Positions 1,235 through 53,795 are shown, counted from the stretch's first letter. The stretch is 64,000 bases of DNA from a virus (IMGVR_UViG_3300036770_008442:62001-126000); one strand, 5' to 3'. The notes: generated by a model from the sequence alone, not told the origin. Translations and numbers: made by a program.

Positions 1235-1236
1235 TA

Positions 1237-14554: not shown

Positions 14555-16249
14555 TTAGGAAAGTCCTCCAGCAGGTACATTGACGTGCAAGCAGAAGTAC
14601 ATGGTTTCGGGGTGGAAACCAGCTTCGACGAGAGCGTAACGTGACTTAACTGCGATCTTCGGAGACATCGTACCCTCTGAGATGGTCTGAATAGATTCAG
14701 CCATCATGTAAGGCATAAACTTGAGACCTGGCTCATCATCTCCGCCCTTTCTTCCAATGAGAATTCTATTGTCGTTGAATTTCATGTTCTGGTCGACGTA
14801 AACAGTCATACCAGCGAGAGAACCAACTGGGTAAAGAGTTCCATTGTTCTGGGTCAGGGTATTAGAGAAAGGAGCAAAAGTAAACTGTGAAATGTCCTGA
14901 AGTGCACTTGCAACGTTAGCGTTAGTAACGATAAAGTTAGCAGGGCCTCTTCTTCCTCTGTTAGCAACTACGTTTGCTCCAGCAAGAATTCTAGAGAAGA
15001 GTCTTCTCTGGAGAGTAGACAAGTTCTCGTAGGTTCCTGAAGCAGGACCAGCAGTACCAGCAAGGGTTAAACCGGTGTCTGATTTTCCAACGTAAGAAGG
15101 AATGGAGTAAGAACCAGCAGTACCACCGATAACGAGGTTGAGGTTCAAGTTTTGTCCTTCTGTAGTGAAGAAATCATAGTGGTTAGACCATCCAAGGGCA
15201 AATGCTCTAGAAAGGATGTGCTTATTAATAGCCTGTGAAACTTCGTTAACAAGAGCATTTTCAATCATTGAAATAACGTCAATTCCAAATTGCTTATTCA
15301 AGTCTTGGATTTGCTCAGTGGTAACAGAAGCAGCTACCTGGAATGTATCAGCCTCCACGAATTTTGTGAAAGTCGAAAGACCCATTGACTGGTAGTAATT
15401 ACTTTCACCGTATGCTCTAAGCATTGGGTTGTAGGTCTTAGTACCATCAACGAAAGGTCCTTGCCAATCATCGGAGTTTTGGAAGCCAGCTCCAGAGAAT
15501 CCTTGGATGTGATCCTCGAGGGCCTTAACCAATTCAGCAGAAGCTGTAGTAGTACCAGCTTGTGATCCGTTAATTGAAGTACCTACTTTAGTTGCTCCAC
15601 CATCAACAACAGCAGCTACAGATTCCCCCGCTGTAATTCCATCAACCTTAAAGATTGGGAATCCGTCGATTCTGGAGAGTCCGACAAATTTGGTTGTGAT
15701 GTATGCACCAGCAGAGGTAGCATTGGTGATGTAGTAAGTTGTACCAACTGCAAAATCACCAGGATATCCAGCTGCAGGGCTCGTAAGTCTGAGCTTAATC
15801 ATAGCAGGAGCTGCTGCCAAAGCATCAGCTGCAGTAGATCCAACAGAGGTTGGGCTAAGCTTACCACCAGCATAAACGTAATCTAGGTAAGAAAGAACAC
15901 CGGTAGGTCCAGACATCGGGATAACCGGAACGATGTCAAATCCAACCGTCTTCGCAGCAACCTGAATTGCCAAGGGAAGAAGTGAAGGAAATTTATCGCC
16001 AGATCCTTGCCAAGATGTGTTGTAAAAACCAGCATTAGCGTTAGTGCTAGTTGGGAAGGTTGGAGGTACAACTGCTCCCATACCGTTTACAACATTGAGC
16101 GACTGGTATGCACCAGCAGACTCATTCAAAGAATGGTAGTGGCAGTATTTGCTCAACCATGTCTTCTTTTCAACATCAGCGATACCTGCTTTTTGCTCAA
16201 TGATAGGAGCCCAGGTATCGAAGATTTCTGCTTCATTAATCAGTTTCAT
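14555..16249 (-). CDS. 23: Major capsid protein, T4 gp23-like
   Basis: 564 residues. The N-terminus (MKLINEAEIFDTWAPIIEQK) parallels the gp23 delta domain. GFDIVPVIPMSGPTGVLSYL matches the T4 gp23 region with DICGVQPMNSPTG. The propeptide ends HSLNE|SAGAY, so processing after E43 by the gp21 protease is expected (T4 cuts after E65). The C-terminal EPGLKFMPYMMAES and KIAVKSRYALVEAGFHP are also gp23-like. The gene is visibly richer in G+C and in a restricted codon set than its neighbours, as expected for the most abundant virion protein. It lies 31 bases after the gp21-scaffold gene and is closed by a strong terminator. Confidence 0.95.
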   Translation of the reverse strand: MKLINEAEIFDTWAPIIEQKAGIADVEKKTWLSKYCHYHSLNESAGAYQSLNVVNGMGAVVPPTFPTSTNANAGFYNTSWQGSGDKFPSLLPLAIQVAAKTVGFDIVPVIPMSGPTGVLSYLDYVYAGGKLSPTSVGSTAADALAAAPAMIKLRLTSPAAGYPGDFAVGTTYYITNATSAGAYITTKFVGLSRIDGFPIFKVDGITAGESVAAVVDGGATKVGTSINGSQAGTTTASAELVKALEDHIQGFSGAGFQNSDDWQGPFVDGTKTYNPMLRAYGESNYYQSMGLSTFTKFVEADTFQVAASVTTEQIQDLNKQFGIDVISMIENALVNEVSQAINKHILSRAFALGWSNHYDFFTTEGQNLNLNLVIGGTAGSYSIPSYVGKSDTGLTLAGTAGPASGTYENLSTLQRRLFSRILAGANVVANRGRRGPANFIVTNANVASALQDISQFTFAPFSNTLTQNNGTLYPVGSLAGMTVYVDQNMKFNDNRILIGRKGGDDEPGLKFMPYMMAESIQTISEGTMSPKIAVKSRYALVEAGFHPETMYFCLHVNVPAGGLS

Positions 16250-23462: not shown

Positions 23463-23504
23463 TATGTTTTTATTGGCCTAAAGTAATCAAATTGAGGTCA
23501 TTAA

Positions 23505-24395: not shown

Positions 24396-24433
24396 ACCAT
24401 GATTTTTACAGGGTAATTTAATGAAAGTTTCCC

Positions 24434-30311: not shown

Positions 30312-31304
30312 TTAAAGATAACTTTTTTCCGGTATCTGAATCTTTTTTTCCCCCATATACTCATAGATATCATTCGGATCAACAGGTACAGCACCCGAGA
30401 TTCGACAAACCAAAGATCCGGAGAGATTAGAAACATCTATACAATCAGTAAGGCTAAATCCGCTCAAGAACATGAGCATAAAAACAGCACTAACTGTGTC
30501 ACCTGCTCCAGAGACGTCCACTATATTAATCGAATGACCATTTACACTAAAGTTTGAATCATTCGAAGATAAAGCCATTCCCCTTTCAGACATGGTGATC
30601 AATGCATATTGGATGTCATATTTAGAAATTAGATTCTTTGCAAGATCAAAAATCTCAGCGACTGAAAGATTCTGGTTTTGGTTGATTTTCAATCCATCCT
30701 TAAGTTCCGATAGATTGGGCTTCAAAATGGTAGTTCCCTGATATTTAGTAAAATCCTTATCCTTAGGATCGGTTAAAACTGGGATTTTTAAGGTCTTACA
30801 TCTACTAATAATTTCAGAGATCAAACCCCTAGTTAAAACTCCCTTGCCATAATCCTGAAGAATAACACCGTCTAAATTTTGACAAATGGAATCAAAGGAT
30901 TCTAGAATAGAGAAAAACACATTCTCTGGAATATCAGAGGTTGTTTCATTATCTATTCTTGTTATCTGATGACCATTTCCTATGATTCGGGTTTTTACTG
31001 TAGTTGGCCTTTGATCAGAAATTAGGATCGGGGTAATCCCAGCCTGTTCTAATAAAACATTTAGAATATTAGAATACTCATCCTCTCCTGAAACTGAAAT
31101 TAAATAGCAGGTGGAACCAAAAACAGAAATATTCTGGGCAACATTAGCAGCTCCGCCCAAGCAATAGATCTCATCCTCTTTCAGAACAACAGGAACGGGA
31201 GCTTCGGGGGAAACCCGGTTAACTTTCCCATAAACGTAATGATCTAAAATGGAATCTCCGATTACTGCGATCCTTTTATTCGCAAAAACATTCACAAAAT
31301 TCAT
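30312..31304 (-). CDS. PfkB-family heptose-7-phosphate kinase-like enzyme (HldE/RfaE N-domain type)
   Basis: 330 residues. Residues 16-38 (GDSILDHYVYGKVNRVSPEA) and GGAANVAQN at 50-58 match the heptose-7-phosphate kinase domain of HldE/RfaE. VDVSGAGDTVSAVF carries the catalytic Asp of PfkB kinases, and QDYGKGVLTRGL is also typical. The cytidylyl/adenylyl-transferase C-domain of bifunctional HldE is absent, so this is an HldA-like kinase only. It would make heptose 1,7-bisphosphate in ADP-heptose synthesis. With a TibC-like heptosyltransferase at 57.2 kb it suggests a phage-supported heptose pathway. It lies between DNA ligase and the portal genes. Confidence 0.85.
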   Translation of the reverse strand: MNFVNVFANKRIAVIGDSILDHYVYGKVNRVSPEAPVPVVLKEDEIYCLGGAANVAQNISVFGSTCYLISVSGEDEYSNILNVLLEQAGITPILISDQRPTTVKTRIIGNGHQITRIDNETTSDIPENVFFSILESFDSICQNLDGVILQDYGKGVLTRGLISEIISRCKTLKIPVLTDPKDKDFTKYQGTTILKPNLSELKDGLKINQNQNLSVAEIFDLAKNLISKYDIQYALITMSERGMALSSNDSNFSVNGHSINIVDVSGAGDTVSAVFMLMFLSGFSLTDCIDVSNLSGSLVCRISGAVPVDPNDIYEYMGEKKIQIPEKSYL

Positions 31305-31314
31305 TTATCAACTG

Positions 31315-32919
31315 TTAAAGAGTAAACTGTTCTGGTTCATCTTCCCCTCCCTCACCCCCTCCTTTTTCCTTAGCTTCCTTCTCCGCTTGCTCTGCTTCTT
31401 TTTTCTTATATTCCTCATTTTTCCGATATTCATCCATCGATAATCCTAGCCATCTCTTAATTAAAAATTCCTTATCAAAATAAGGTTCCTCTTCATCCCC
31501 TATTCTTTGATTCATTTCCGACATAGAGTTTACAAATTCAGATCTCTTTGTTAAATTTTGGAGATTTAAGAATTCTTCAAAGATGTTTTCCCTTACATAA
31601 TCCAGTCCTAGATTAGACTTAAAGGATCGGTCTTTAGATAATTCTGGAAAATCTAAACACATTTGGATATAAAGAGGCTTAACCAATATTTCCTGAAAAA
31701 CCGATCTAATTCTGGTTAAAAACTTTTCATAACGGATTTCATCCCTCTCTAGCTGATCTATACTAATCTGATAATTAGCCGGGGTTCCACCTCTAAAAGA
31801 AAATCTAGCATATGGAATTTTTGAATCTAGTTTGAGCTTATTGTAGAAATAAACAACATTTTCCATCACATTAAAATCTGGTCCATTGGGATCTAAAGTC
31901 TCGATAGAAGGGGACTGTCCATCTTTTTCAGGAAAAAGATAGTTCTTGTAGAATTGCACCTTAGGTCTACCATTGACTGTCAATTCTCCAGAGAAATCAT
32001 TCAGTTCTATCTCCTCCTTGTAAATAGACATTAATTGACCCAAAGTTTGCATGGCTTTCTGCTGGGATTGGCTTCCAACCGGTATAACAAATTTGAGACG
32101 ATATGAAGCATTCATAACATTCCAAATAACCCGGGTATTCTCCATAATTCTAAGAATATTGTACGATCTCACAAGTCTTTCTACATAACTAACTCTAGAG
32201 ATCGTATTTCCCTTAGCATAAGACAAATAAATCACCTGCTCATTTTGGAGCTTTCTGGTCATATTATTATCATTTGGATATTGGATCCAGATCTGTTTAA
32301 ATTCACCATTTGGCTGAGGCTCTGTTGCTGGCTGAAGGGAAGTCGGATCCAATTCTTTGAATCCGACTATCTTTTTACCATTTGTAGAATAAACAATCTC
32401 AAAAGCCAAAAATCCATCAATAAGAAACTGTCTGAAATATTGCCAAGCTAAAACTGATTGTTGAAACCCAAACATCATATACAGATTCCTATATGATTCA
32501 TCTATTCGATCTAATATTTCTTTCTTAATTTCTATATTAGCAATGCCGGGATATGAAAAGAAGTTCTTATCGTCATAATTTATAGCATCATCTGTCAAGG
32601 TATCCAGAATAAAATCAATCTCCCCGTTGAGAGAAAATTTTCTTAGAAAATCCCTTTTGCCCAGATAGTCTTTATCAAAATAAGCAATATATTTTCTAAT
32701 TTTTGTGTCCTGATATCCCAAAGTCCAATAGAAGGCGGAATTTTCAGTAAATCCGGTTCCTTGCTCTTTGAAAAAATTAGATTCAGTTTGGCCAATAGCT
32801 TGGGAATTCCGGATTACCATATCCTCGTATTTCATCCCAAACTTCCCTATGCGACTCAGGTTTTTATATAAGACGTTTAAAAAACTTCTTTCCTGAACGT
32901 TATCCAAAAATCCGGCCAT
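31315..32919 (-). CDS. 20: Portal vertex protein, copy A (T4 gp20-like)
   Basis: 534 residues (MAGFLDNVQERSFLNVLYKN). It carries the gp20 block FDKDYLGKRDFLRKFSLN, the WQYFRQFLIDGFLAFEIVY wing region, VIWNVMNASYRLKFVIPVGS and the crown/stem region RIRSVFQEILVKPLYIQMC. The C-terminus is a Glu/Gly-rich tail. T4 gp20 (524 aa) forms the dodecameric portal through which DNA is packaged. This copy is about two-thirds identical, in the best blocks, to the gene immediately upstream (copy B), from which it is separated by 20 bases. Both look full length and intact. Confidence 0.9.
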   Translation of the reverse strand: MAGFLDNVQERSFLNVLYKNLSRIGKFGMKYEDMVIRNSQAIGQTESNFFKEQGTGFTENSAFYWTLGYQDTKIRKYIAYFDKDYLGKRDFLRKFSLNGEIDFILDTLTDDAINYDDKNFFSYPGIANIEIKKEILDRIDESYRNLYMMFGFQQSVLAWQYFRQFLIDGFLAFEIVYSTNGKKIVGFKELDPTSLQPATEPQPNGEFKQIWIQYPNDNNMTRKLQNEQVIYLSYAKGNTISRVSYVERLVRSYNILRIMENTRVIWNVMNASYRLKFVIPVGSQSQQKAMQTLGQLMSIYKEEIELNDFSGELTVNGRPKVQFYKNYLFPEKDGQSPSIETLDPNGPDFNVMENVVYFYNKLKLDSKIPYARFSFRGGTPANYQISIDQLERDEIRYEKFLTRIRSVFQEILVKPLYIQMCLDFPELSKDRSFKSNLGLDYVRENIFEEFLNLQNLTKRSEFVNSMSEMNQRIGDEEEPYFDKEFLIKRWLGLSMDEYRKNEEYKKKEAEQAEKEAKEKGGGEGGEDEPEQFTL

Positions 32920-32939
32920 TTTATTTAATTAACTTTTGT

Positions 32940-34589
32940 TTATGCTGTGGGTTCTTCAGTTCCTTCCGCGGGTGGAGCGGGCTCGCTCGGGGTGGCTGCG
33001 GGAGCTTCTGGCTGCTCGCCTTCTGGACTTTGTCCTTCAGCTTCTCCAGATTTTTCGCTCTCTTTCTTTTCCTTTTTTCTTTTCTCTTTTGCTTCCATGT
33101 TTGCCTTAATATCATCCTCGGTCATTCCCAGATAATTTTCTATCAGATAAGCAAGAGAAAAGAAAGGTTTTCCATCTGCATCTGTTAATCCATATAGAGA
33201 CGAAATAGATTCTTTTTTCTTGGACATAGTTTCCATCTCCTGATTAATTCGAAATGGATTATCAGAAACAAAGGTTAATCCTAATTGGCTTTTAAACAGA
33301 TGATCCTTTTCTAGTTCTGGAAAATCTTTACACATCTGGATCCAAAGTGGCTTTATGAGGATATCCTGGAAAATAGATCTAAGCCTTGTAATAAACTTAG
33401 AGAATCTTATTTCCTCCTTATCCAAACCCTCTGCAGAATTTGAATATTTTCCAATTGATCCACCGTCCGGTCCCTGAAATCTCGAAAATGGAATTTTAGA
33501 TTCTTGAGCAAGCTTATCGAAGAAATAAGCTAAAGGACCAGGGTCATTTAAATTGGGTCCAGCGTTGCTGATTGGTTCTATTGTAGGAGTACCATTAACA
33601 CCAGAAGGCATCAGATAATTTTTATAGAACTGAATCTTAGGTCTTCCGTCTATAGTTAATTCTCCGCTTTCGTCGTTGAATCTGATATCCTCTTTATAGA
33701 TACTCATTAATTCTCCCAAAGTCTGCATAGATTTTTGAGGAGATTTGGTACCAATAGGAACGGTCATTTTCATTCTAAATGAAGCATTCATCACGGACCA
33801 AATCACCCGAGTATATTCGATAATTCGGAGAACATTGTATGGTCTAATCAGTCTTTCGGTATAGCTAATTCTAGAAACCGAATTTCCCTTTGCGTATGAA
33901 ATGTAAATAATCTGGGAATCGTATAAAAGCCTTCTTCTATTCTCATCCTTTGGGTATTGGTACCAAACATTTAAATAAGTTCCATCTTTTTGTTTTTCAA
34001 CAGAAGGCATCAAAGTTGTTGCATCTAACTCCTTAAATCCAATAATTTCTTTCCCGTTATCATTGTAAATAATTTCAAAAGCTAAAAATCCATCGACCAT
34101 TAACTGTCTGAAATATTGCCAAGCACTGATATCATCAGTGAAGCCAAACATATCATACAGCTTTTTATAGTTAAGATCTATTCTATCGATTACTTTTTCT
34201 TTGATACCCGTTAGATTTAAAAAAGCAGGGTAGGCAAAAAAATTAAAAGAATCATAAGATATAGCCTCGTCACAAACAGTATCTAAAATGTATTCAATCT
34301 CTGGATTAAGAGCAAACTTTCTCAGATAATCTCTTTTTCCTGCATAATCCTTATCGAAATACCCAATGAATTGCTTTGTTGAAGTGTCCTGTCTGGCTAA
34401 AGAATACAACATGGCCTCATCTTCGATGGGACCTTTTTTCATGAATTCCGCCTCGACCTGACCGATGGCCTGGGAATTTCTAACCACTAAATCTCCGTAC
34501 CTCATACCAAAGGTACTAAGAGACTTCACAGAATCTCTGATTCTTTGAAATACTGGATTCCCCTGTGGGCTTTCTGTAAATCCTGCCAT
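32940..34589 (-). CDS. 20: Portal vertex protein, copy B (T4 gp20-like)
   Basis: 549 residues (MAGFTESPQGNPVFQRIRDS). The same gp20 architecture as the downstream copy: FDKDYAGKRDYLRKFALN, WQYFRQLMVDGFLAFEIIY, VIWSVMNASFRMKMTVPIGT, RLRSIFQDILIKPLWIQMC. In a 46-residue block around the first motif, 31 positions are identical to copy A. The C-terminal tail is Pro/Glu/Ala-rich and more extended than in copy A. It follows the 202-aa gene, and a GATATATA motif at 34647 lies 58 bases before its ATG. Either copy could be the true portal, or both could assemble together. Confidence 0.9.
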   Translation of the reverse strand: MAGFTESPQGNPVFQRIRDSVKSLSTFGMRYGDLVVRNSQAIGQVEAEFMKKGPIEDEAMLYSLARQDTSTKQFIGYFDKDYAGKRDYLRKFALNPEIEYILDTVCDEAISYDSFNFFAYPAFLNLTGIKEKVIDRIDLNYKKLYDMFGFTDDISAWQYFRQLMVDGFLAFEIIYNDNGKEIIGFKELDATTLMPSVEKQKDGTYLNVWYQYPKDENRRRLLYDSQIIYISYAKGNSVSRISYTERLIRPYNVLRIIEYTRVIWSVMNASFRMKMTVPIGTKSPQKSMQTLGELMSIYKEDIRFNDESGELTIDGRPKIQFYKNYLMPSGVNGTPTIEPISNAGPNLNDPGPLAYFFDKLAQESKIPFSRFQGPDGGSIGKYSNSAEGLDKEEIRFSKFITRLRSIFQDILIKPLWIQMCKDFPELEKDHLFKSQLGLTFVSDNPFRINQEMETMSKKKESISSLYGLTDADGKPFFSLAYLIENYLGMTEDDIKANMEAKEKRKKEKKESEKSGEAEGQSPEGEQPEAPAATPSEPAPPAEGTEEPTA

Positions 34590-34615: not shown

Positions 34616-35224
34616 TTACTTTGACTTTAATTTCGATCTATATTCACTATATATCGAATTTAAAGGAAGTCCCTGTATAAACGAATCTGAAAGATATGCT
34701 ATTTTACACCAGTCCAGATAATCTACTGTTTTGATACTCCTAAAGTTTTCTTTCTTAAATCCAGTCACGGCAAAGGAATATCCAGTTCCTTCCAAAAGTC
34801 TAGATAATACATTTCCATTTAACTGAATAGGGATCTGGTCTCCCGGAATATTGGTCTCGTTGTCTTTAATTTTGTCATAAAACTGATTGAATAGTCTTAA
34901 TAATATCTGACCCCGATAATCGGGAGGAATAATGTTCAAATCAATTGATTTAAGTATTTTACCAGATTTTATTTCCTCCTCACCTAAAAAAATAAACAAA
35001 GGGTATCTATTAATGTACCTAATTTTATCAGAAATACGACTGTTAGTGGCATATTCCCCGGTATAAATTTTACCAGGTATCAGGAAAGAACCAATTTTTT
35101 CCTTACCTCCCTTTCCCTCTATCCCGTATTTTTCTTTAAAAAATTTATTCGTTGCATCCGAAAGAGCAGATAAGGAAGGAACCCCTTCTCTGTAATCTTT
35201 TATCTGCTGTTCAAAAGGCTTCAC
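34616..35224 (-). CDS. Hypothetical T4-like phage protein next to gp4 (202 aa)
   Basis: Starts at a GTG at 35224 overlapping the gp4 stop (GTGA). The most distinctive part is SFLIPGKIYTGEYATNSRIS, then RYPLFIFLGEE, then a LNIIPPDYRGQILLRL segment. This GK-x-Y ... PL-x-I ... LN-x-x-PP-x-x-R-x-x-LL pattern recurs, as I remember it, in an uncharacterised protein of T4-like phages, but I cannot name a function. Its place between gp4 and the portals suggests head or packaging. A promoter motif for the portal lies in its last codons. Confidence 0.6.
   Translation of the reverse strand: MKPFEQQIKDYREGVPSLSALSDATNKFFKEKYGIEGKGGKEKIGSFLIPGKIYTGEYATNSRISDKIRYINRYPLFIFLGEEEIKSGKILKSIDLNIIPPDYRGQILLRLFNQFYDKIKDNETNIPGDQIPIQLNGNVLSRLLEGTGYSFAVTGFKKENFRSIKTVDYLDWCKIAYLSDSFIQGLPLNSIYSEYRSKLKSK
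34647..34654 (-). promoter_or_regulatory. Late-promoter-like GATATATA motif inside the end of a gene
   Basis: The minus strand reads TTCGATATATAGTGAATA, 58 bases before the ATG of portal copy B and within the last codons of the 202-aa gene. The position suggests separate expression of the portal pair. Confidence 0.45.
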
Positions 35225-35706
35225 TTGTCATTAAATAAAAAGTTCTCATCTACTATCCCAAACTTGTATCCTCGAATTTCAGCCCAAATTTTAGCAGATT
35301 TGAATTTAGCTTGATTGGTAATCCAAATCTGCATTTTTTGGTTATATGATTTGAGCTTATTTAATGTGCTTGTTCCCTCGAAAACAGGTTTTTTAAATTG
35401 AGATTCGGGTTTTACCTCTAAAATCCATTCTTGCTTTTCCCCATTTTCTTTTTGGATCATAATATAAAAATCCACAAAATAATTGTGGTTTTTTTTATCC
35501 AACGGATTAAAATATGGAATTTTTATTGGTTCAGAACTCCATTTTAATATTAAACTATTGGTATCACAATACTTGCAAAATCTAAATTCCCAAGAAGATC
35601 TGCACACTATTTTATTAATGTCTCCTATATACTTATCTGGATTTTTGGGAACATAAAGTCCGGATTTATATCTTCCGTTGGGCTTTACTTTCTTAATATC
35701 AGACAT
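35221..35706 (-). CDS. 4: Head completion protein with TnsA-like nuclease fold (T4 gp4-like)
   Basis: 161 residues. GRYKSGLYVPKNPDKYIGDI and CRSSWEFRFCKYCDTN match the head-completion gp4 (gp50/gp4) family of T4-like phages. The nuclease-like core has the SWE helix, then LKWSSEPIKIPYFNP, YFVDFYI (D) and WILEVKPE (ExK). These are the E...D...ExK positions of the TnsA/VRR-type restriction endonuclease fold. In T4 gp4 is needed to finish filled heads before tail joining. It lies four bases after gp55 and overlaps the next gene. Confidence 0.85.
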   Translation of the reverse strand: MSDIKKVKPNGRYKSGLYVPKNPDKYIGDINKIVCRSSWEFRFCKYCDTNSLILKWSSEPIKIPYFNPLDKKNHNYFVDFYIMIQKENGEKQEWILEVKPESQFKKPVFEGTSTLNKLKSYNQKMQIWITNQAKFKSAKIWAEIRGYKFGIVDENFLFNDK

Positions 35707-35709
35707 TCT

Positions 35710-36066
35710 TTAAACATTGTAGGAATTATCCTCCCCTGTTATATATGAAAAAGGAATAGTCTTAGGTGATTTGGGAGGGTGAATTTTTTTCCATCCTTTT
35801 GCAAATCCATTTTTAGCTATCTGAGTGTAGTAAGCAAAGGGATTATTAGACTTAGTGGGATCAAATCTGTTCCAATATCTGCAGAGATCCTCCATGGCAA
35901 AAGCCATACAATCCTCTTTATCTTCTGGATCCCGGTAAGCCATTTTTTTGGATATACCCTGAATCATCAATGAAAACATTTTAATCGTATCAGGGGTTAA
36001 TTGACCCCTTTCTTTGGACTCTAAAATTGCTTTCATGAGATCCACATTTTTAACATAATCAGCCAT
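35710..36066 (-). CDS. 55: Late-transcription sigma factor (T4 gp55-like)
   Basis: I start at the ATG at 36066 (MADYVKNVDLMKAILESK), 118 residues; an upstream in-frame extension runs through the preceding gene's 3' end. ADYVKNVDLMKAI parallels T4 gp55 NYVNNKELLQAI. The later segment with MIQGISKKMAYR, MEDLCRYWNRFDPTKSNNPF and YYTQIAKNGF parallels the gp55 sigma-2-like region ([24 protein letters not shown]). T4 gp55 (185 aa) directs host RNA polymerase to TATAAATA late promoters. This protein is shorter and lacks an evident copy of the C-terminal clamp-binding SLDFLYE, though it ends with a short IPFSYITGEDNSYNV tail. Confidence 0.85.
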   Translation of the reverse strand: MADYVKNVDLMKAILESKERGQLTPDTIKMFSLMIQGISKKMAYRDPEDKEDCMAFAMEDLCRYWNRFDPTKSNNPFAYYTQIAKNGFAKGWKKIHPPKSPKTIPFSYITGEDNSYNV

Positions 36067-36118
36067 CGTACTTAAGGGATTCTTTATTTTTAGAATTAAC
36101 CCAAAAGTTAGTTTCGGG

Positions 36119-38820
36119 TTAATCTTTTTCCTCCAAATTTTCATCCTCATCGGAAATGAGCGAATCCCCAGAGGGTTTTTTGCCATCCGGAGCTACGCTC
36201 ATTCTACCTTCTATATTATCTACAAAAGGCTTTGGAGAATCGGATTGGTCCGCTGCCGAAGGAGCAAAAGACCAAACCCTACTTAATATTTTTTTTAGTT
36301 TTTTTTTGACTCTAAACTTTCCCCTAAATTGTAACCCATTTCCTTATTTACCTCAAAATCCAAAGATGAATCTTCCTTTGAAGTAGGAGCTTGTGCTAAT
36401 TCCTGATTAAGCTTTGAAATTTCTGGATTCTTTTGCTTCACGTTTGTTACTCTAACTGGATATTTAATTCTATTTATACCCCCTGGAGCTTGAGCGAAAT
36501 TATGGTTGGTCTTTTTTAATTCAGTCTCCGAAATTGGATTATCCGAATCCTCCGGAGCATATGCCATATTTCCGTTTTTCAAGTTATCTAAATCCTCATC
36601 ATTTTCATTCACATTATAACCCATTTTTAAATCTCCAGGTCCCTTAATTTTCACATCGAAATTAGTAGCTTTCTCTTTTCCCTCTGGTGCTTCTTCTAGT
36701 CCATCATTTCCAGATTTCTTAGAAGATTTTTTATTAGATACCTTTGAATCCTCATCAGGTGCACTTGAGGTATTTGATTTTAGAGAAGAAGCCGGAGTTT
36801 TAAATTTTGTCTTAGCCGTTTTAGGAGAAGGGGCTACTGATAATTCTTGTTCTTTAATCTCCTCCTGATATTCCATATCATACTCTGGTTCTTCAGATTT
36901 TCCCTTTAATGCCTCTTCAATATCAACAATTTCATCTACTCTAAAATCACCAGTTCTACCGTTGTCCATTAAAACAGTATAAGATCCACTAGTATTATCA
37001 ACCGAAATAATTTTCCCAGTGTTTCCCGATTCTTTCACTTTAACATAGCTTCCGATGGTAAATCCATCATCCTCATAAAGATTTAAAGGCTGCTCCTTAA
37101 TTCCAGATTCAATTGTTTCTATCTCTTGATTTACTAATTGCCATTTTTTTCTTAGAGCATTAAGTTCCATCTCTAAAATATCATGGGCTCTTTCAATTTC
37201 TTTAGAATTTGAATAAATAGGATTTCTGTCCATCAGATCATTAATCTTATTTATTTCCGATTCGACAATAGCAATATTCTCCATAATTTTAGCTCTATCG
37301 TTTATCATGATCGATCTAATCTTGGATTCACCCTGTAAAAACTCTGTTAATCCCTCCGAAATATCATATTTTAAGAAATCCTTAATCATGGAGGTTGCTT
37401 GAGTTCCATTGACCTCATATAAAGAATTTTCTCTCATAGATTCATTAATTCTATTGAGATAGATTTTTCCTCCCCATTTAATAAGATTGACGGAAGCTCC
37501 TTCATATAGATGTGATTCTAATCTCTTCGCAAAATCTATCTCAACAATAGACTCATAGTTTTCAAAAAGTCTTATAATATCAGAAACGACCTTAGACTCG
37601 TTGATACCAAAAATTCCCGAGATCTCCAATGAAATTTGTTTTGAAAGACTTAATTTATCCAAGGTATTTAATTTGACGTCTCTAGTTGAAACTTGTGTTG
37701 ATCCATTTTCTTCGAAGATCTTAAAAGATTTATCACCAACATAAACGCTTAGACCTTCCTCGTTGACCTTCACATAAGGAGCATAAAAAGATTCTAATAA
37801 TGATCTATATTCTTCCGGGAATTCCATAAATTCCTTCGAGTTTAATCTTCTTAGCCCACTGTTGGATGCTTCGAAAATATTGTTTCCAATAGTAAAGACA
37901 GTCTTCCCGCCACCTATTAAAACAGGGGAGAATAGTCTTGAAACTTTTGTGTTCAAAGAATTTACAGGGACATTGAGATTTTTACTACTGCTCTCCATCA
38001 ATCTCAATGAATTAAGAAGACCTCTGACAGCTGGATTAAAAGACCATCTAGAAATATCTTTAGAAAGAAGATTAACAGATTTGTTTTCCGATATCATCCA
38101 CTTGTTCAGGGATTCCAAAACTGGTGAATAAAAATCAGATCCAGCACTTCTTTCAATGTTATAAATAGTTTTTGCAACCTCAATCTCTGGCTTTAATAGA
38201 CCTACTTTATTGCTGATATTTTCAAAGATTCCTTTGACCTTATCATCCCATGTAAAATTGTGAAGGTCGTTTACAAAAGATTCCACAACCAAAAATTCAG
38301 GAAGTCCTTTGGTCTTCAAAAGATTCTGATATTTCTCAGCGACAATCTTCATCTGCGGATGGTCGTATATTCCGCTTTCCTTGATATCTAAAATAGATTC
38401 ATAAACCCCCAAATTGAAAACTTTTTGCGATTCAAGGAAAGATCTTGCAGAAGAATCTTTTTGAGCGGATTCTGCCAAACTTTCAGATATCATTCCATGA
38501 ATGTTATTTTCGGGAGCTTCATCAGTCCGATAAGATCCAGCATTATTTAAAGAATTTCTGCCCAATCCGCTCCAAGATTCCATGATTTTCTGAGCAGCAG
38601 CCTTGGACCTATCCAATTCTTGTGTTCTAATTTGTTGATAGGGATCAGGTTCTACTGAAATGGAATTATCCAATGATTGAACAGATTCCATAATTTGCTT
38701 CTCGTTTAAATCTGAAATATTCCCAGATTCTATCATATTGATATGAGATTCGCATATTGATTTTACCTCTGGAGATTTTGTTGTATCCCTAAGTGTTTTC
38801 AATTGGTTGAGTAAATCCAT
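36119..38820 (-). CDS. Very large AP-rich structural-type protein with a probable -1 frame extension
   Basis: The zero frame encodes 841 residues and stops at 36295. The -1 frame opens at the run TCA AAA AAA AAC TAA (slippery A AAA AAC) and continues open to a TAA at 36119, adding about 58 residues. The extension (SFAPSAADQSDSPKP, SVAPDGKKPSGDS, then an acidic end) has the same AP-plus-acidic low-complexity style as the zero-frame tail (SSAPDED, EEAPEG, YAPEDSDN, QAPGG). The N-terminal ~600 residues are helical with several INE/LNE sites. A KOW/SH3-like segment (GSYVKVKESGNTGKI; YTVLMDNGRTGDF) is near residue 630. The family is unrecognised; a core or scaffold protein is possible. It precedes gp55. 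Confidence 0.6.
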
Positions 38821-38905: not shown

Positions 38906-39451
38906 TTATCTGGCTATCAGTAGTTCTATTTTAACATTTATATTAGTATGCGGGTTGGTGAAAATAATACCTCCGTCAGTATATGGAAGATTTGATTCGC
39001 TTAAGTTCCATCCCGTATTCTCGGAATCTGTTGAACCCAATTTATTTCCGGTTAGTATCATTAATTCACCTACATTATACGTCCTCCCCTGATATGTCCA
39101 ATTGATATATTTTCTAGACTGTGGTGTTCCGTTGGTTGGGGTAGGAACTCCGGGAATAATTGGTACTTGAGATCCATAAAGAATTGGATTTTCGGGTTCT
39201 GGATAATTGACCTTCACGGCTATCCACCTAACGTATCCGTTGATATCACCAATATCGGTTTGACTGATTTTTACAGATTTTCCAGAATTTAAGGATATTC
39301 TAAGCTTAGAGTAAGCTACTACATCATCCAAAAGATCCTTGAAATCTAAAAAAACAGTTTTTTTAAAGTCCTCCTGAAGAACAAACTTATCCCGATTAAA
39401 TAAAAATCCATTTGGAGAATTTGGGGGACATTGGATAGGTCTAGTTGCCAT
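38906..39451 (-). CDS. Putative structural protein, paralogue B of a pair (181 aa)
   Basis: 181 residues (MATRPIQCPPNSPNGFLF). The C-terminal 80 residues, with INWTYQGRTYNVGELMILTG, GWNLSES and GGIIFTNPHTNINVKIELLIAR, align in order with the C-terminus of the adjacent protein at 39451. It is beta-rich with no catalytic motif, like decoration or fibre-type proteins. It overlaps the upstream gene at a TAATG junction and ends just before the promoter of the 38820 gene. Confidence 0.65.
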   Translation of the reverse strand: MATRPIQCPPNSPNGFLFNRDKFVLQEDFKKTVFLDFKDLLDDVVAYSKLRISLNSGKSVKISQTDIGDINGYVRWIAVKVNYPEPENPILYGSQVPIIPGVPTPTNGTPQSRKYINWTYQGRTYNVGELMILTGNKLGSTDSENTGWNLSESNLPYTDGGIIFTNPHTNINVKIELLIAR

Positions 39452-47441: not shown

Positions 47442-48020
47442 TCAGAGGAAAAGATCCTGCCAATAATCAGATTTCCAAGTTGTTTCCAAAGTGTAAATGG
47501 AATCACCAGCATCGTAGCTTAGTCCCATGGAATTGATTGCCTCCACTGGAAAACAATTATTCAGATTTACCCTTCTGAAAACATCTCCTTGTTTATTAAA
47601 AATAGAAATTATCATAGATCCAACATAATCCCTTTTTAATCCCATGGCTCCCGTCAAGGGATTGTAAATAAGATCAGACCATTGGCGTAGAATCTTATAA
47701 ACAGTCATGGAATTATTCTCATTTAAATTTACCTCAAAGGACACGTTGAATTGAACATCAGAAGTTGAGGGTTCACCTCCTGAATACCTTCTTTCTGCGA
47801 ATTTGTAAAACTGGGTAACGGGAGCGTTGGGCTGAAGATCAATCTGAAGGGCGCTGATGTTTTTAACCTGCTGGGTTAAAATGCCTTCTCCATTAAAAGT
47901 CACATTAGCTTCAGTTATAGCAGCTGGAGGATTAATTAAAACCTCGAACTGGTTTAAGAATACAGGTTCGTAATTATTCCTGGCTGCTTTTGAATTATTA
48001 AAATGAGGTAAACCTGCCAT
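47442..48020 (-). CDS. 19: Tail tube protein, copy 2 (T4 gp19-like)
   Basis: 192 residues. The N-terminal FEV (NQFEVLINPPAAITEA) strand, the RQWSDLIYNPLTGAMGLKRD segment and the C-terminal YTLETTWKSDYWQDLFL strand are those of the gp19/gp18-tube fold. T4 gp19 has 163 residues. It is clearly related to the adjacent copy (same RQW-x-DLIYNPLTGA core and the same YWQDLFL C-terminus). Two tube genes in tandem are unusual. One may form the tube and the other a baseplate-proximal or terminal ring (as gp54 does in T4). Confidence 0.85.
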   Translation of the reverse strand: MAGLPHFNNSKAARNNYEPVFLNQFEVLINPPAAITEANVTFNGEGILTQQVKNISALQIDLQPNAPVTQFYKFAERRYSGGEPSTSDVQFNVSFEVNLNENNSMTVYKILRQWSDLIYNPLTGAMGLKRDYVGSMIISIFNKQGDVFRRVNLNNCFPVEAINSMGLSYDAGDSIYTLETTWKSDYWQDLFL

Positions 48021-48035
48021 TTAAAAGAATTTTTT

Positions 48036-48590
48036 TTAGAGAAATAGATCTTGCCAATAATCAACCGCCCAAGTCATGTTTATCTCGTATAAGTTAGTAC
48101 CATTCACATAATCGAGTTCCATGGGATCAATAGCTTTTAAAGGAAAACAGTCTTTACAAGTTATTCTCCTAAAAACATTACCGTTTTTGTTGAAAACTGA
48201 AATTATAATGGTTCCTGTATAGTCTGCTTTGACCCCCTGAGCTCCTGTTAAAGGATTATAAATCAAATCTGTCCATTGTCTGAGGGTTTTAAACACATAC
48301 ATAGAATTTGCATCATCCAGATTAACAGTGAATTTAAGAGCAAGGTCTAATGTTGTAGTGTCAGGTTTACCACCTGCATAATTTCTTTTAGCAAACTTAT
48401 ATTTTTGAGCAACAAATCCTGGGTTTTTATCAACATCAAGACCACCAACAGACACCACATGTTCTAATAGAATAGGGCCTCCTGCAACAGCAGCAGGTGG
48501 TACAACATTCACCTCAAACTGATTGAGATAAACAGGCTCAAATTTATTGATCGAATTCAGTGAATTTTGATAATGTGATAATCCAGCCAT
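48036..48590 (-). CDS. 19: Tail tube protein, copy 1 (T4 gp19-like)
   Basis: 184 residues with NKFEPVYLNQFEVNVVPPAA, RQWTDLIYNPLTGAQGVKAD and the C-terminal YEINMTWAVDYWQDLFL, as in its neighbour. The fold and size match gp19. It is 15 bases upstream of copy 2 and 48 bases after the sheath gene, which carries AT-rich ATAAATATAAA upstream of it. In contractile-tail phages the tube polymerises inside the gp18 sheath. The two copies differ mainly in loops, consistent with divergence after duplication. Confidence 0.88.
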   Translation of the reverse strand: MAGLSHYQNSLNSINKFEPVYLNQFEVNVVPPAAVAGGPILLEHVVSVGGLDVDKNPGFVAQKYKFAKRNYAGGKPDTTTLDLALKFTVNLDDANSMYVFKTLRQWTDLIYNPLTGAQGVKADYTGTIIISVFNKNGNVFRRITCKDCFPLKAIDPMELDYVNGTNLYEINMTWAVDYWQDLFL

Positions 48591-48638: not shown

Positions 48639-51600
48639 TTATACAAACTGAATAAATCCACCCGAAGAAATACCTCCAGTTCTAGTAACAGTAACTCTAT
48701 TAATAAATTTCTGGATACCTCTTGCGGGTTCTATGATAACGTCGATAATACCAATATTTTGGTCTATGATAGCAGGGGTATTATTAGAAGAATCCATAAT
48801 AACCTGGTAAGCATAAATGCCACCTCCTGCTCTTACACCATCTAAATAATTATCTACCAGAGTTTTAATTTCTAGTCTGATTGAATCCTCGTTGAAATCA
48901 AAGAGATAGTTAGCAAGGATTTCTTCAACATCAGATTCTAAGCTAATTAAAAGATCCCTGACGTGAACTAGATTAAACGCAGAATTTACTGTTTGGTATG
49001 CTGTCTGGTTTCCAAATATAACTACTCCGATTCCTCTCTTTTTAATTAAGGGGTTAAGACCCACTGGCTCGAGCCAACCTCTATCTGAATCGGTAAAATC
49101 ATATTCAACTCCAACGAGGTTGGTGGCAGATATAATTCCTCTTTTTTGACCGGCAATAATATTGTAAGGTTCACCATTTGAAAATTTTCGAACAAAATTA
49201 TTGGAAATGTATGCAGCCGGAGGAACATTAATATTCTTGTTGTTCTCTCTAATCGTTAAATATGGTGTATAGAAAGCTGCAAATTTAGCTCCCTGATCCT
49301 CAGTCGGTAAAGAGAATGTATAAGAAGGATTAAGCGATAAATTTCCGCCCTCTGAGATGTACTGAGCTTGTAAAGACGGTGCTGGATTAGCTGGGGTTGG
49401 AGCATTTGTAAATCTAGGATCAGTCGAAGATCTAAACTGAGCCATTGAGGGGGCATTAATCAGGGCCAAAGCCTTCTGCCTCATCATAGCCAATTTACTC
49501 AATTGATATTTAGAATTGGGTAGGATTTGACCACTGAAGGTATCCACAATATATCTAAAGCTTATAACATCCTTAGTTGCCAAAGTTGCAGCTATATTGG
49601 TGTCATACATAACGTCCAGAATCTCAGAAACTCTAGCATCAGTTCCATTAGGTCTATGAGAATCCTTCATTGTAAATCCGTTGAGGTAAGTGAAATCAAA
49701 GGATCTGGTAAACTGGGGGATAGACTTGAATTTCTGAACTTGGAGAGGACTACCAGCATAATAGAGAACCGGTCGAGCAGTAGTAACTTTAACTATTCCT
49801 GCAGTTGAGGTTTGAGCTACTGATGTGACTTTGGTCAATCTGCCCTGACGATTTGCTCCTTCAGTTTCACAAATATCCAAATCTGTCGATACTAAAAGAT
49901 CTCCAACAGAAATAGGAGAAGATGGAGAGGATGATATAGTGAAATTAGTTGGGTCAATTTTAGTAACAACACTGACGTATTGATTAATCGATCCAACAGA
50001 AGAAACTATGTCAGTTTTTCCAGCAGAAACTGTATTACCTATATTATCAGAAGCGTAAACACTACCAAAAGCTGGGTAGTCCTCCAATTGCGATGGATTT
50101 TGTCTAGCTTCATTATTGAATGCTCTTGCATAAGAGATGTTGTATTGATCTCTATCTACAGTATTTTGATAGGTGATATAATTAATACTGGTTCCAGTAT
50201 CATTTAGCCAGAGCTGATCCCCATCGGCAAGTTCACCATATAAGAGATCCTGATAGAAAGGAGTTTCAATCTGTCCAATTAAAGCATTGGAAGCAGTTCC
50301 ACCTGTGACAGAGGCCACACTGACAATATCTAAATAATCAGAAGCTACTATTTGGAAATATCCAGGATTAACATCTCCGGTTGCTCCGTCTAAATCAGCA
50401 TAAGGTTCAACTGAAATGCCCTGAGCTGAATAAGAGGGAGTATCTAAAGGATGAGAGAAAGTTAGAAGAACGTTTCCTCCAGTTTCAATAGCTCCAGATA
50501 TTTTAAGTTTAACCAGATCATTTTCAGAAAACTGATTAATCACAGTTCCAGTTAATCCAACGATTCCTGTCAGTTTACCAATAATATATGGTTGGGATGT
50601 AGCTGTCGGTGTTGCAAATTCAACAAGTGATTGTTTTTGAACCGATGTTAAAGTACCGGAAGAAGAGGTGACGATATAATGAAGTCCCCCGTATTTCAAG
50701 GCCGGGTCATAAGAATCAAAATTAGAAGTAGCAATACCAGCAGTAGCTCCACCAGAGTAAAGGGTAAACAAAGATCCAGTTTTAATAGAAGCTGTAGCTC
50801 CGGTGGCACTATCTGTTATTGTATTAACATTCTGAGAATATAGATAATCTGCCAACAAGTTTTGATCATAACTTAGAAAGTTCAATCGGGCATCAACTAG
50901 ATCTCTATCCGAAGTTAATTCATCGATTAGGTGATTCCCTACCAAATCAATCTTGTATGGATTGCTACAAATATTATCCAAAGCCTGCTCATCAACAGCA
51001 CAGAAGAGTCCAGTTGATGGGGTATTATTATTAATCAGGGTTTGGATGTATTGGTTATTCCCATTGAGATCGACAAAATCAGGAATTAAACATCCGGTTT
51101 GATTAACCACTATATTGACATCAGGCTGGGATAAAAAGCTAACAATCTGACTTTTGATGAAACCATTTCTGGTAAAATAAGAGCTCCATCTTGGATCCAA
51201 TGAAAGTGTTTCATAATCCGTCCAATCTCCAGAAACTGCAATAACGTCTATGAAATAGTCAGAAATATAATCATATGGATGCATAAAACTTGGAACGTTA
51301 TCAGCTCCATACCAATCAACAGCAAAAACATCGAATCCCTGTAAAGGTGGAGTTGCATCCGTTGATTTTCTCACAATAACACTCATGGATTCTTTTCCAA
51401 GATTCACAAGGTTAAAGATTCTACCGGTGTCTACAGATGACATGGTAGCCAAGAAATATTCAGGGTCTGCAAACCAAAATCTCTCCTTATTAAAAAATGA
51501 AGAGTAAAGTCTAGATGTTAAAACGCCATTGGATTGTTCTGTATCTACAGAATATCCAAAATAATTGACAACGTCTGCTGTTGAGCTATCGATGTCATTA

Positions 51601-51896
51601 TTTAAAGCAAGTAGGTTTAGCGCGAAAACGGGACCTGTTGATAAACAAGCAAAAATAGATCTATGAAAGAAAGATCCCTTTGCCTCTAGTGTTTTATCTA
51701 TATCACCAAAAATAGCCACCGCTGTAGTGACATCCGGTAAATAAACAGGAGCATTAAATGGTCCCTTGTTGGAAAATCCAACTACTAACCTAATTGTTTG
51801 TGACGTCAGAATAATATTTTCCGAAGCGTCGAATTCTAGAGTGTAAACACCCGAGGCTTTGAATTGTGATAAATCAAGTTTGATTTTCTTTGCCAT
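48639..51896 (-). CDS. 18: Tail sheath protein (T4 gp18-like), enlarged
   Basis: 1085 residues, much longer than T4 gp18 (659). The N-terminal beta domain with ILTSQTIRLVVGFSNKGPFN starts the sheath fold. The C-terminal domain with IAGQKRGIISATNLVGVEYD, RGIGVVIFGNQTAYQTVNSA and VIIEPARGIQKFINRVTVTR carries the handshake strands typical of contractile sheaths. The middle (~250-780) is an insertion of beta-rich, Thr/Ser-rich sequence that would face the outside of the tail. Two GATATATA motifs lie upstream (51924 and 51977), indicating strong late expression. Confidence 0.9.
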   Translation of the reverse strand: MAKKIKLDLSQFKASGVYTLEFDASENIILTSQTIRLVVGFSNKGPFNAPVYLPDVTTAVAIFGDIDKTLEAKGSFFHRSIFACLSTGPVFALNLLALNNDIDSSTADVVNYFGYSVDTEQSNGVLTSRLYSSFFNKERFWFADPEYFLATMSSVDTGRIFNLVNLGKESMSVIVRKSTDATPPLQGFDVFAVDWYGADNVPSFMHPYDYISDYFIDVIAVSGDWTDYETLSLDPRWSSYFTRNGFIKSQIVSFLSQPDVNIVVNQTGCLIPDFVDLNGNNQYIQTLINNNTPSTGLFCAVDEQALDNICSNPYKIDLVGNHLIDELTSDRDLVDARLNFLSYDQNLLADYLYSQNVNTITDSATGATASIKTGSLFTLYSGGATAGIATSNFDSYDPALKYGGLHYIVTSSSGTLTSVQKQSLVEFATPTATSQPYIIGKLTGIVGLTGTVINQFSENDLVKLKISGAIETGGNVLLTFSHPLDTPSYSAQGISVEPYADLDGATGDVNPGYFQIVASDYLDIVSVASVTGGTASNALIGQIETPFYQDLLYGELADGDQLWLNDTGTSINYITYQNTVDRDQYNISYARAFNNEARQNPSQLEDYPAFGSVYASDNIGNTVSAGKTDIVSSVGSINQYVSVVTKIDPTNFTISSSPSSPISVGDLLVSTDLDICETEGANRQGRLTKVTSVAQTSTAGIVKVTTARPVLYYAGSPLQVQKFKSIPQFTRSFDFTYLNGFTMKDSHRPNGTDARVSEILDVMYDTNIAATLATKDVISFRYIVDTFSGQILPNSKYQLSKLAMMRQKALALINAPSMAQFRSSTDPRFTNAPTPANPAPSLQAQYISEGGNLSLNPSYTFSLPTEDQGAKFAAFYTPYLTIRENNKNINVPPAAYISNNFVRKFSNGEPYNIIAGQKRGIISATNLVGVEYDFTDSDRGWLEPVGLNPLIKKRGIGVVIFGNQTAYQTVNSAFNLVHVRDLLISLESDVEEILANYLFDFNEDSIRLEIKTLVDNYLDGVRAGGGIYAYQVIMDSSNNTPAIIDQNIGIIDVIIEPARGIQKFINRVTVTRTGGISSGGFIQFV

Positions 51897-52001: not shown

Positions 52002-53795
52002 TTACAACAGTTGGCTGAACGATGAATAAAATCCTCCTTCTTTCGTTCCACTTTCGTTCGTATTTCCTCCATTTAGCTTTGAATCTATCAAATCCCTATA
52101 CTCATCCTCTAAAGAATCATACATTTCCCCAATCATATCATAAAAAGCGGAGGATTCAAAAATCGAACTAATGTTAACTATTGTCATGGCGACGTCATCA
52201 TGACCAGTCTGGCTGGAATAAGTCCCACTAGAATTTAGACCAAATGAAAAAAGCTCAGGGATAGTCCAATCTTTTTCATTAATAATGATTTTATTGGATC
52301 GGATAAGGGATCTTACTATCTCGCAATATTTAAGCTTATTTTTCTCATTGTATTTAATGCCGGGCTTTAGAGATTTAGAAGATTCCGAATGTTTGGTGTG
52401 GATGATAATCTCCTGTGAAAGATCATCATTTACAAGCAATTTATCCAACAGGAATTCGCCCTTGAAATTAACCTCCATTAGGATTTTAATATTTTCAGGA
52501 TTAAAAACTTTGACAATCAGACATTCTAGGAGTCTTCTAAAATCCTCTATTTGGATTTCATTATCCCGATAAACCCCAACTTGAAGGAGTCCAAAGAAAT
52601 CAGATTCGTCATTGAACTCCCTGGTGTTTTCTATTACTTTTCTAGGCAGAGGAACAACCTTGAAAACATTTAAGACAGTAAAATCCCCTCTGCTCCCCCC
52701 TGCCAAATCTATGGAGATAATAAATCTATTTCTTTCTAATACTTCACCCTCCAATTGAAACTTAGGATGCCATTTAAAATTTTCATAGGATAGACCTAAA
52801 TCATGAAGCACATCTATCTCTTTCCAGACGTATTCAGTTTCATTGAATTTCATTTTTCTGAGCTCATTAGAACCCAATAAAAGCGTAGATGAACTTAAAA
52901 ACTGATTACCGTATTCCTGATTGAAAAGTTCTTGTGATCCAAGGTTAGAGACCTCTTTTTTTTTCCATTCTTCATCCCTTCCTGGAACTTGCCACCAATC
53001 AACCCGAATAGGATTAAAACTATTTTCTCCCCTAAGTGCTCCTTGATAAATCTCATAAAACTTATTCATCCCATTGGGAGTAGAAGTAATGATTATTCGA
53101 GATACATTAGAGGAGGATACAGTAGGATATGTAGATCTGAAGAAAGATTCAATAAAATTTGGATGAATGTGTGCAAACTCATCCATATAAAGAAAGTGGA
53201 TCGTAAAACCGATCGCTGAGGTTTTAGTGGTTGTTTTCGCGATTGCCCTGCAGCCATTATCAAATTTCATGGACATCACATTATTTACGATGATACCAGG
53301 TTTTAAGAACCATGGAAGTCCCTTAACAATGGATTTAATCTTATCCATTAATTCTTCTGCAGTTGAACCCACGTTTGCTAATATCATAGCATTTTTATCG
53401 TGATTGAAAAGCAGATACCATACTAAAATAATAGCAGAGGTAATAGATTTACCAACTTGTCTGGGTGCTAAAAAAATATTAAATCTATGAGCCTGATATT
53501 CTCTTAAAACAGATTCTTGATAGTCTCTAAGTTTAACGTAAAAAAGTCCATCGTCAGTCATAACTCTGCAATATTTAGCAAAATAAACGACGTCCTTTGC
53601 ACACTTCTGCATTTCTAGAATCTCCTCCTCTGTATATTGCCAGAGTAGATTTGATCTTTTTAATTCAGGATCACCGTCATGAAATGGGTTGTCTACTGAT
53701 TTATAATCCAGACCTTGCTCTTCTATCTCATAAAGAAGTCTTTCTACTTTTTTAGTACTCCAATAATTAGAGCTTATTTCTTCAGGTTCGTTCAT
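52002..53795 (-). CDS. 17: Terminase large subunit (T4 gp17-like)
   Basis: 597 residues. The ATPase has Walker A APRQVGKS at 110-117, Walker B FLYMDEF with D205/E206, and the coupling motif RIIITSTPNGMNKFYEIY. The nuclease domain has SIDLAGG with D363 and the C-terminal GHDDVAM near 555. T4 gp17 is 610 residues with the same order. It packages DNA through the portal and cuts the concatemer. It lies eight bases after the putative small terminase gene and before the sheath gene, the T4 order 16-17-18. Confidence 0.95.
   Translation of the reverse strand: MNEPEEISSNYWSTKKVERLLYEIEEQGLDYKSVDNPFHDGDPELKRSNLLWQYTEEEILEMQKCAKDVVYFAKYCRVMTDDGLFYVKLRDYQESVLREYQAHRFNIFLAPRQVGKSITSAIILVWYLLFNHDKNAMILANVGSTAEELMDKIKSIVKGLPWFLKPGIIVNNVMSMKFDNGCRAIAKTTTKTSAIGFTIHFLYMDEFAHIHPNFIESFFRSTYPTVSSSNVSRIIITSTPNGMNKFYEIYQGALRGENSFNPIRVDWWQVPGRDEEWKKKEVSNLGSQELFNQEYGNQFLSSSTLLLGSNELRKMKFNETEYVWKEIDVLHDLGLSYENFKWHPKFQLEGEVLERNRFIISIDLAGGSRGDFTVLNVFKVVPLPRKVIENTREFNDESDFFGLLQVGVYRDNEIQIEDFRRLLECLIVKVFNPENIKILMEVNFKGEFLLDKLLVNDDLSQEIIIHTKHSESSKSLKPGIKYNEKNKLKYCEIVRSLIRSNKIIINEKDWTIPELFSFGLNSSGTYSSQTGHDDVAMTIVNISSIFESSAFYDMIGEMYDSLEDEYRDLIDSKLNGGNTNESGTKEGGFYSSFSQLL

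Follow-up and report, generated by a model that had tools for sequence, protein, structure and literature searches.

Tandem T4-type portal genes and tandem tail-tube genes in a myovirus lineage, and the possibility of hetero-oligomeric axial rings

Two portal genes in a late structural region

The stretch of viral DNA analysed here ("the window": 64,000 nucleotides, G000:C1:62001-126000 within a 128,254-base virus record) carries two gp20-like portal genes next to one another on the minus strand, with B transcribed before A:

32940..34589, minus strand: portal paralogue B (P0002), gp20-like, 549 aa, upstream member of the pair
32920..32939, minus strand: B-A intergenic gap, 20 bases, A/T-rich, without an inserted gene
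31315..32919, minus strand: portal paralogue A (P0001), gp20-like, 534 aa, downstream member of the pair

A preliminary description of this DNA had proposed just such a tandem, two intact gp20-like genes (534 and 549 aa) separated by 20 bases, and both the open reading frames and the matches to PF07230 (Portal_T4) bear it out: A matches with E 3.5e-59 and 201 bits (cut-off 22.9) over profile positions 9-433 of 433, and B with E 3.8e-58 and 198 bits (same cut-off) over positions 7-431. Both proteins also match the portal family phrog_213 (A, E 3e-55; B, E 6e-56), and neither reading frame has an internal stop in the window. When modelled with AlphaFold2, at moderate confidence (pLDDT 70.2 for A and 72.5 for B), both proteins have T4 gp20 structures as their best PDB match, with TM scores of 0.5-0.64 over 440-540 alignment columns. 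The alignment accounts for clip, stem, wing, crown and tunnel loop in both A and B, with no domain missing; together with the near end-to-end profile matches, this agrees with the earlier statement that neither copy is truncated or has lost its clip, wing or crown. A and B are members of the T4-type portal family. A 46-residue block of high similarity, singled out in the same description, is indeed present (A228-273 of the A/B alignment), with 33 identical residues counted by eye in place of the 31 first given.

Phage portals are textbook homododecamers, and an ordinary homododecameric system has one portal gene per genome; this genome has two of full length. T4 gp20 (PF07230; PDB 3ja7, 6uzc, 9mkb) resembles A and B in family, in fold and in having the same alignable domains and tunnel loop, and gp4-like and gp55-like genes accompany the portals here. 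It differs in being the product of one gene, whereas the present pair consists of tandem paralogues identical to each other at 257 of 503 aligned residues (51%; 73% similar), each only about 17-20% identical to T4 gp20 and with paralogue-specific, slightly longer tunnel loops.

The setting of the pair is that of the late structural and packaging genes of a myovirus: gp4-like and gp55-like genes lie beside it, and terminase, sheath, tube and gp23 genes lie elsewhere in the window, which also encodes a gp14/Hc2-like neck protein and a prohead protease.

34616..35224, minus strand: 202-aa conserved protein of unknown function, directly upstream of the portals
35221..35706, minus strand: gp4-like head-completion protein, TnsA-like fold (phrog_218, E 5e-45; PF08722)
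35710..36186, minus strand: gp55-like late sigma factor (phrog_234, E 4e-15)
48639..51896, minus strand: tail sheath, single copy in the examined record (phrog_34521, E 4e-120)
52002..53795, minus strand: large terminase, single copy, the packaging partner of the portal (PF03237; phrog_5989)
14555..16249, minus strand: gp23-like major capsid protein, with no second full-length copy in the record (PF07068, E 4e-40)

The gp4-like gene keeps its position near the portal, and in the phage genome LR756500 a gene of similar size occupies the place of the 202-aa protein. A search for promoters and terminators gave no match in the B-A gap, and promoter-like counts around the portal region are at chance level.

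Age and conservation of the portal pair

The nearest single-copy portals, 45-47% identical to both A and B, are those of LR756500 (462 kb) and its relatives L098-L177. These share the gene order gp55-like, gp4-like, ~200-aa gene, portal, but have a single gene each for portal and tail tube. More distant members of the same portal family, likewise with a single portal, are found in the large genomes of the Prevotella Lak phages, Sphingomonas phage PAU and Tenacibaculum phages PTm1/pT24, several of which have Bacteroidota hosts; the host of the two-portal lineage probably belongs to the Bacteroidota.

No second portal copy was found at 69 single-copy loci with at least 4 kb on either side. When 36 long contigs were searched over the whole record, two portals were present in 18/18 two-portal records and one of full length in each of the 18 others. 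A public phage collection has gp20 homologues in 1,920 records, at 1,922 places, and none of these records has two full-length copies: LR756501, where the extra match is a shortened portal-like ORF, and its twin LR756503 account for the two extra places. A search of cellular genomes for the A family found a single match, weak and 51 residues long. Each gene belongs to a known T4-type portal family, and it is the two-gene arrangement that is undescribed in the openly licensed literature; the earlier remark that no described phage with two functional paralogous T4-type portals is known holds for those papers and for the 1,920 public gp20 records.

In LR756501 and a related contig, a further portal-like protein, lacking the clip and 338-342 aa long, is encoded far away from the true portal. 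Portal-derived proteins of another form therefore exist, and one possibility is that only one of the present paralogues is the packaging portal, the other having been repurposed as an assembly initiator, a second neck ring, or a protein that regulates or chaperones portal assembly. One would expect faster evolution or missing parts in such a copy; A and B have both retained clip, stem, wing and crown, cover nearly the whole profile, are similarly close to the single-copy portals and, as described below, are equal in rate and constraint. We regard repurposing as decidedly unlikely.

Within the lineage, the pairing is very regular. When viral contigs were scanned with A, 80 distinct ones matched, and in all 76 that reach far enough upstream B lies directly before A; the other four start no more than 170 bases from the start of A, or inside it. 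A second scan used B, with loci partly from the same contigs as the first, and scoring by script found an intact B-A pair at 103 of the 108 loci with full upstream sequence. Three of the five exceptions are stop-to-stop frames that merely overlap; the other two (L076 and L312, loci of one contig) have a single in-frame stop in B. The B-A gap is 2-23 nt at the 108 measurable loci and never contains another gene. Since the tandem is found in every contig extending far enough, it is the product of neither chance nor an assembly artefact.

In sequence, 52 A/B gene pairs are distinct. In the tree, the A orthologues fall into one clade (support 100/100) and the B orthologues into a second (100/100); these are sister clades (100/99) that leave out every single-copy portal, and their stems are of similar length (0.58 and 0.53). 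This topology indicates that the duplication took place once, before the lineage radiated. Strong purifying selection has since kept both copies, with no decay of either in the lineage: the median dN/dS is 0.011 for A and 0.019 for B (31 pairs with unsaturated synonymous distance). Orthologue distances in A and B run closely in parallel (r=0.95, rate ratio 0.97, 40 distinct pairs), with a partial r of 0.70 given two neighbouring genes, although pairwise distances are not independent and these correlations are descriptive only. Across the lineage, both paralogues are thus retained jointly and under equal constraint.

Gene conversion between the copies has left no sign, A-B identity being 48-55% in every pair. 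As for degeneration of one copy, the ancestral conserved residues that have been lost are few and scattered over both, so that neither is clearly degenerating.

Could the pair nevertheless be a neutral relic of duplication persisting by chance, or an artefact of assembly? Single lesions do occur, namely the stop in B at L076/L312 and a frame break in A in the L294 contig. Against this stand the very low dN/dS of both copies over the 52 distinct pairs, reading frames that stay intact despite the extent of A-B divergence, and the origin of the pairs in independent metagenomes; the conservation data already contradict this explanation, and we consider it scarcely credible. A recently duplicated pseudogene in close relatives, which the preliminary description had named as grounds for abandoning its view, is likewise rejected, in view of the deep clades, the low dN/dS and the presence of both genes in all 76 related contigs where they could be sought.

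A matching duplication of the tail tube

The portal is not the only ring protein encoded twice. Upstream of the portal pair in the window lie two adjacent tail-tube genes, whose products both match tail-tube profiles and are 52% identical:

48036..48590, minus strand: tail tube paralogue T1, 184 aa (phrog_32623, E 6e-37; phrog_45, E 7e-12)
47442..48020, minus strand: tail tube paralogue T2, 192 aa (phrog_45, E 1e-12; phrog_32623, E 7e-31)

A single tube match is found in each of LR756500, LR756501, LR756504, LR745206, Lak-C1, PTm1 and PAU. In the set of 36 long contigs, two tandem tubes are present in 14/14 two-portal records with a tube match and one tube in 12/12 single-portal records with a match. 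Four two-portal records have no tube match, which is attributable to truncation: their portals are at most 13 kb from a contig end, and the tubes in the window are 13-14 kb upstream of the portals. T1 and T2 each form a clade (96/93 and 100/98), and these are sisters, separate from the single tubes. The tube has thus been duplicated to the same depth, and in the same clade, as the portal. Each duplication looks like a single event on the trees, and as both fall on the same branch they amount to one coincidence rather than a replicated association.

When sequences were compared all against all, no other tandem pair of ~50% identity was found in nearly all of G000 and in 40-60 kb of two other two-portal records, nor any such pair in 40 kb of a single-portal relative. 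A general duplication of structural genes was therefore rejected, the regions examined having otherwise only low-identity or tail-fibre pairs. One low-identity pair (25%) is at 38906-40125, and there is a separate tail-fibre pair.

One possibility is that each portal forms its own homomeric ring in one of two particle types, joined to its own tube type, so that there would be two virion or tail morphs. Two matched sets would explain why portal and tube are doubled in the same clade, and each portal paralogue keeps the full fold; the paired presence, equal rates and operon would also suit a homomeric ring of each kind. In the regions examined, however, there is no duplication of the genes for capsid, sheath, terminase or neck, and no lineage lacks either member. 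In addition, the sharing of an operon by B and A, with so short a gap at every locus, argues for coupled rather than alternative expression. Taken together, two particle types seem unlikely. A second portal for use at another vertex or stage is less favoured on similar grounds: the two genes form one tight operon, and no duplication of capsid, sheath, terminase or neck accompanies them in the regions examined.

The tube pair has a rival reading of its own, in that contractile injection systems (eCIS) and T4 (gp19/gp54) also have more than one tube-fold protein per system. The second tube protein of eCIS and T4 forms a cap at the baseplate end, and the T4 gp54-type proteins and the eCIS tube initiators are examples of tube paralogues that serve another role. 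Bacteroidales injection systems carry two tube genes (PMC7394362). The contractile two-tube systems differ from the present lineage in that no portal duplication accompanies the second tube protein. The literature matches for two tube proteins concern injection systems in one case and the tubular proteins A and B of a short-tailed phage in the other.

Divergent tunnel loops and possible mixed rings

Where do the two portals differ? A, B, single-copy and T4 portals were aligned, with domain boundaries taken from T4 gp20: wing 70-254 and 378-450, stem 255-278 and 359-377, clip 279-358, tunnel loop 374-398 and crown 451-524 (PMC4493910). At the low identity to T4 noted above, these boundaries are approximate on A and B, and the register of the A and B tunnel loops includes small indels. 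The stretches of most interest are:

31741..31869, minus strand: clip end, stem helix alpha-7 and tunnel loop of A, codons A351-393 (boundaries approximate); a 20-aa loop with a fixed Arg376, near-invariant among A orthologues
33414..33545, minus strand: the matching stretch of B, codons B349-392 (boundaries approximate); a 21-aa tunnel loop with a fixed Asp opposite Arg376 of A, near-invariant among B orthologues

Overall, 24% of the columns fixed in both paralogues differ between A and B. In alpha-7 and the tunnel loop (T4 359-398) the figure is 14 of 25 conserved columns (odds ratio 5.0, p=2.6e-4), and non-redundant sets give 13/24, compared with 40/215 elsewhere. The highest-scoring difference windows are at T4 355-398, with the alpha-7/loop region at or beside the maximum for the protein. 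A tunnel loop that simply evolves fast was rejected as the cause: control comparisons between single-copy clades show no excess in this region (odds ratio 0 to 0.1), and a depletion for the wider pair. Loop length also separates the paralogues, at 19-20 residues in A (mostly 20) and 21 in B, compared with mostly 18-19 in single-copy portals and 19 in T4. At one loop position the residue is Arg in A (frequency 0.98) and Asp in B (1.00), and mostly acidic in the single-copy portals; in the inner clip loop, a Lys kept in A is a fixed Gly in B.

Alpha-7 with the tunnel loop, the contact element that was mapped, is where the differences between A and B concentrate. T4 tunnel loops touch and interact with neighbouring loops and help to fix the subunit count at twelve; their deletion gives 28% 11-mers and blocks the completion of packaging (PMC4493910). 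In SPP1, the tunnel loops cross-talk with the terminase and have been proposed to act as a ratchet (PMC9701221).

Paralogue-specific tunnel loops would equally be expected if A and B each formed a ring of their own. A further alternative is that the two are interchangeable or conditional portals, each a working homododecamer, serving dosage or a particular temperature, infection stage or host. Both are complete, and their differing loops could give differing packaging properties. Copies of this sort, however, are usually lost or converted somewhere, and here 52 distinct pairs keep both without a sign of gene conversion; the tight shared operon also leaves no room for separate control of A and B. 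We find interchangeable or conditional use quite improbable.

Tight operon pairing, equal rates, paralogue-specific loops and the matching duplication of the tube all fit a hetero-oligomeric portal, one of the readings offered in the preliminary description and the one we favour. It would have arisen when tandem duplications in an ancestor doubled its T4-type portal gene and its tail-tube gene, both copies of each then being retained as obligatory, co-expressed and differing subunits of one ring. The portal would be an A/B hetero-oligomer, most simply an alternating 6+6 dodecamer of C6 symmetry, and the tube either a hetero-hexamer (3+3, for instance) or a stack of two disc types. In the portal, the division of labour would lie mainly in the channel gate, with distinct fixed tunnel loops carried on differing channel-side alpha-7 helices: given the fixed Arg/Asp difference, neighbouring loops could form A-B contacts that are impossible in a homomeric ring. 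The benefit would be a lowering of ring symmetry towards that of neck, tail and spike. In T4 a portal of 12-fold symmetry meets a neck that is 6-fold (PDB entry titles), and symmetry matching would be an attractive reason for hetero-rings.

The sequences show two intact, ancient and equally constrained portal genes that always occur together, divergence centred on alpha-7 and the tunnel loop, and a tube duplicated within that clade; co-assembly, alternation, stoichiometry and the reason for a hetero-ring we infer. That the axial rings are hetero-oligomeric, with a portal of A and B and a tube of T1 and T2, strikes us as an evenly balanced proposition. The fuller version is tentative, and may perhaps be right: obligatory hetero-rings in both axial systems, an (AB)6 portal of C6 symmetry with two kinds of DNA-gripping loop, and a (T1T2)3 tube of C3 symmetry.

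There is a precedent of a kind in the fungal V-ATPase proteolipid ring, in which a duplicated subunit became part of an obligatory hetero-ring and co-assembly has been demonstrated experimentally. The likeness, a ring subunit that is duplicated and then no longer pairs with itself, is one of analogy: the protein is unrelated, and co-assembly in the phage is predicted from its genes. If correct, the phage rings would be a viral case of a homomeric ring turned into an obligatory heteromeric one, and demonstration of a mixed ring would give phage portals a new architecture.

It has long been asked how a portal of 12-fold symmetry works against a capsid and a motor that are both 5-fold and a tail that is 6-fold. 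A lineage in which portal and tube are each split into two paralogues offers a ready-made genetic handle on this question: either kind of subunit, and above all either kind of tunnel loop, could be mutated on its own to probe each ring position. Should (AB)6 and (T1T2)3 prove true, gene duplication would have lowered ring symmetry stepwise from head to spike.

Lesions and possible fragments of portal genes

Among the two-portal loci, the 549-aa paralogue (portal B) carries one in-frame stop in L076/L312, which are the same contig, and the 534-aa paralogue (portal A) one frame break in L294, each pair being otherwise intact; these single lesions may be sequencing errors, or they may be genuine. 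Weak portal matches also occur in two huge-phage records that have a single full-length portal:

LR756500 256124-256309 (L096): short ORF, 190 aa, matching the clip region
LR756501 15154-15318 (L097): short ORF, 101 aa, matching the crown region

Both are possibly portal fragments. A 43% match at L313:319-477, in an uncultured Spirochaetaceae bacterium MAG, is limited to residues 1-51 of portal A, and the source is possibly a phage contig binned with the bacterium.

A clip-less portal-like protein in another clade

Two huge phages of a clade other than the two-portal lineage encode, in addition to the true portal, a portal-like protein of 338-342 aa:

LR756501 142020-143048 (= L356:1521-2549): clip-less portal-like ORF
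G036:C1:810-1826 (= L357): clip-less portal-like ORF

On our reading of the sequence, the N-terminal, wing, stem and alpha-8 parts appear to be kept and the clip to be absent; Pfam and PHROGs searches matched nothing. A thymidine-kinase-like gene adjoins it in both.

Capsid-like ORF, adjacent pairs and portal neighbours

Other features of the virus record, the first two outside the window (whole-record coordinates, G000:C1), include:

951-1403 (-): 151-aa ORF, containing a 46-residue stretch that shares 52% identity with the major capsid protein (window 14555-16249)
22082-23767 and 23781-25298 (-): adjacent collagen-like tail-fibre-type genes, 33% mutual identity
12469-13359 and 13361-14458 (-): adjacent pair beside the capsid gene, 26% identical
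38906-39451 and 39451-40125 (-): adjacent pair in the structural region, 25% identical
62249-63499 (-): RCC1-repeat-like protein, matching phrog_4219 (regulator of chromosome condensation)
30312-31304 (-): PfkB-family sugar kinase, resembling the heptose-kinase part of HldE

The 151-aa ORF is a capsid fragment or a short paralogue. The pair beside the capsid gene, for which no family match was found, is a possible head decoration pair, and that in the structural region a possible old tandem pair. The sugar kinase gene, which is the next gene downstream after portal A and separates the portal pair from a DNA ligase-like gene, is unusual company for portal genes.
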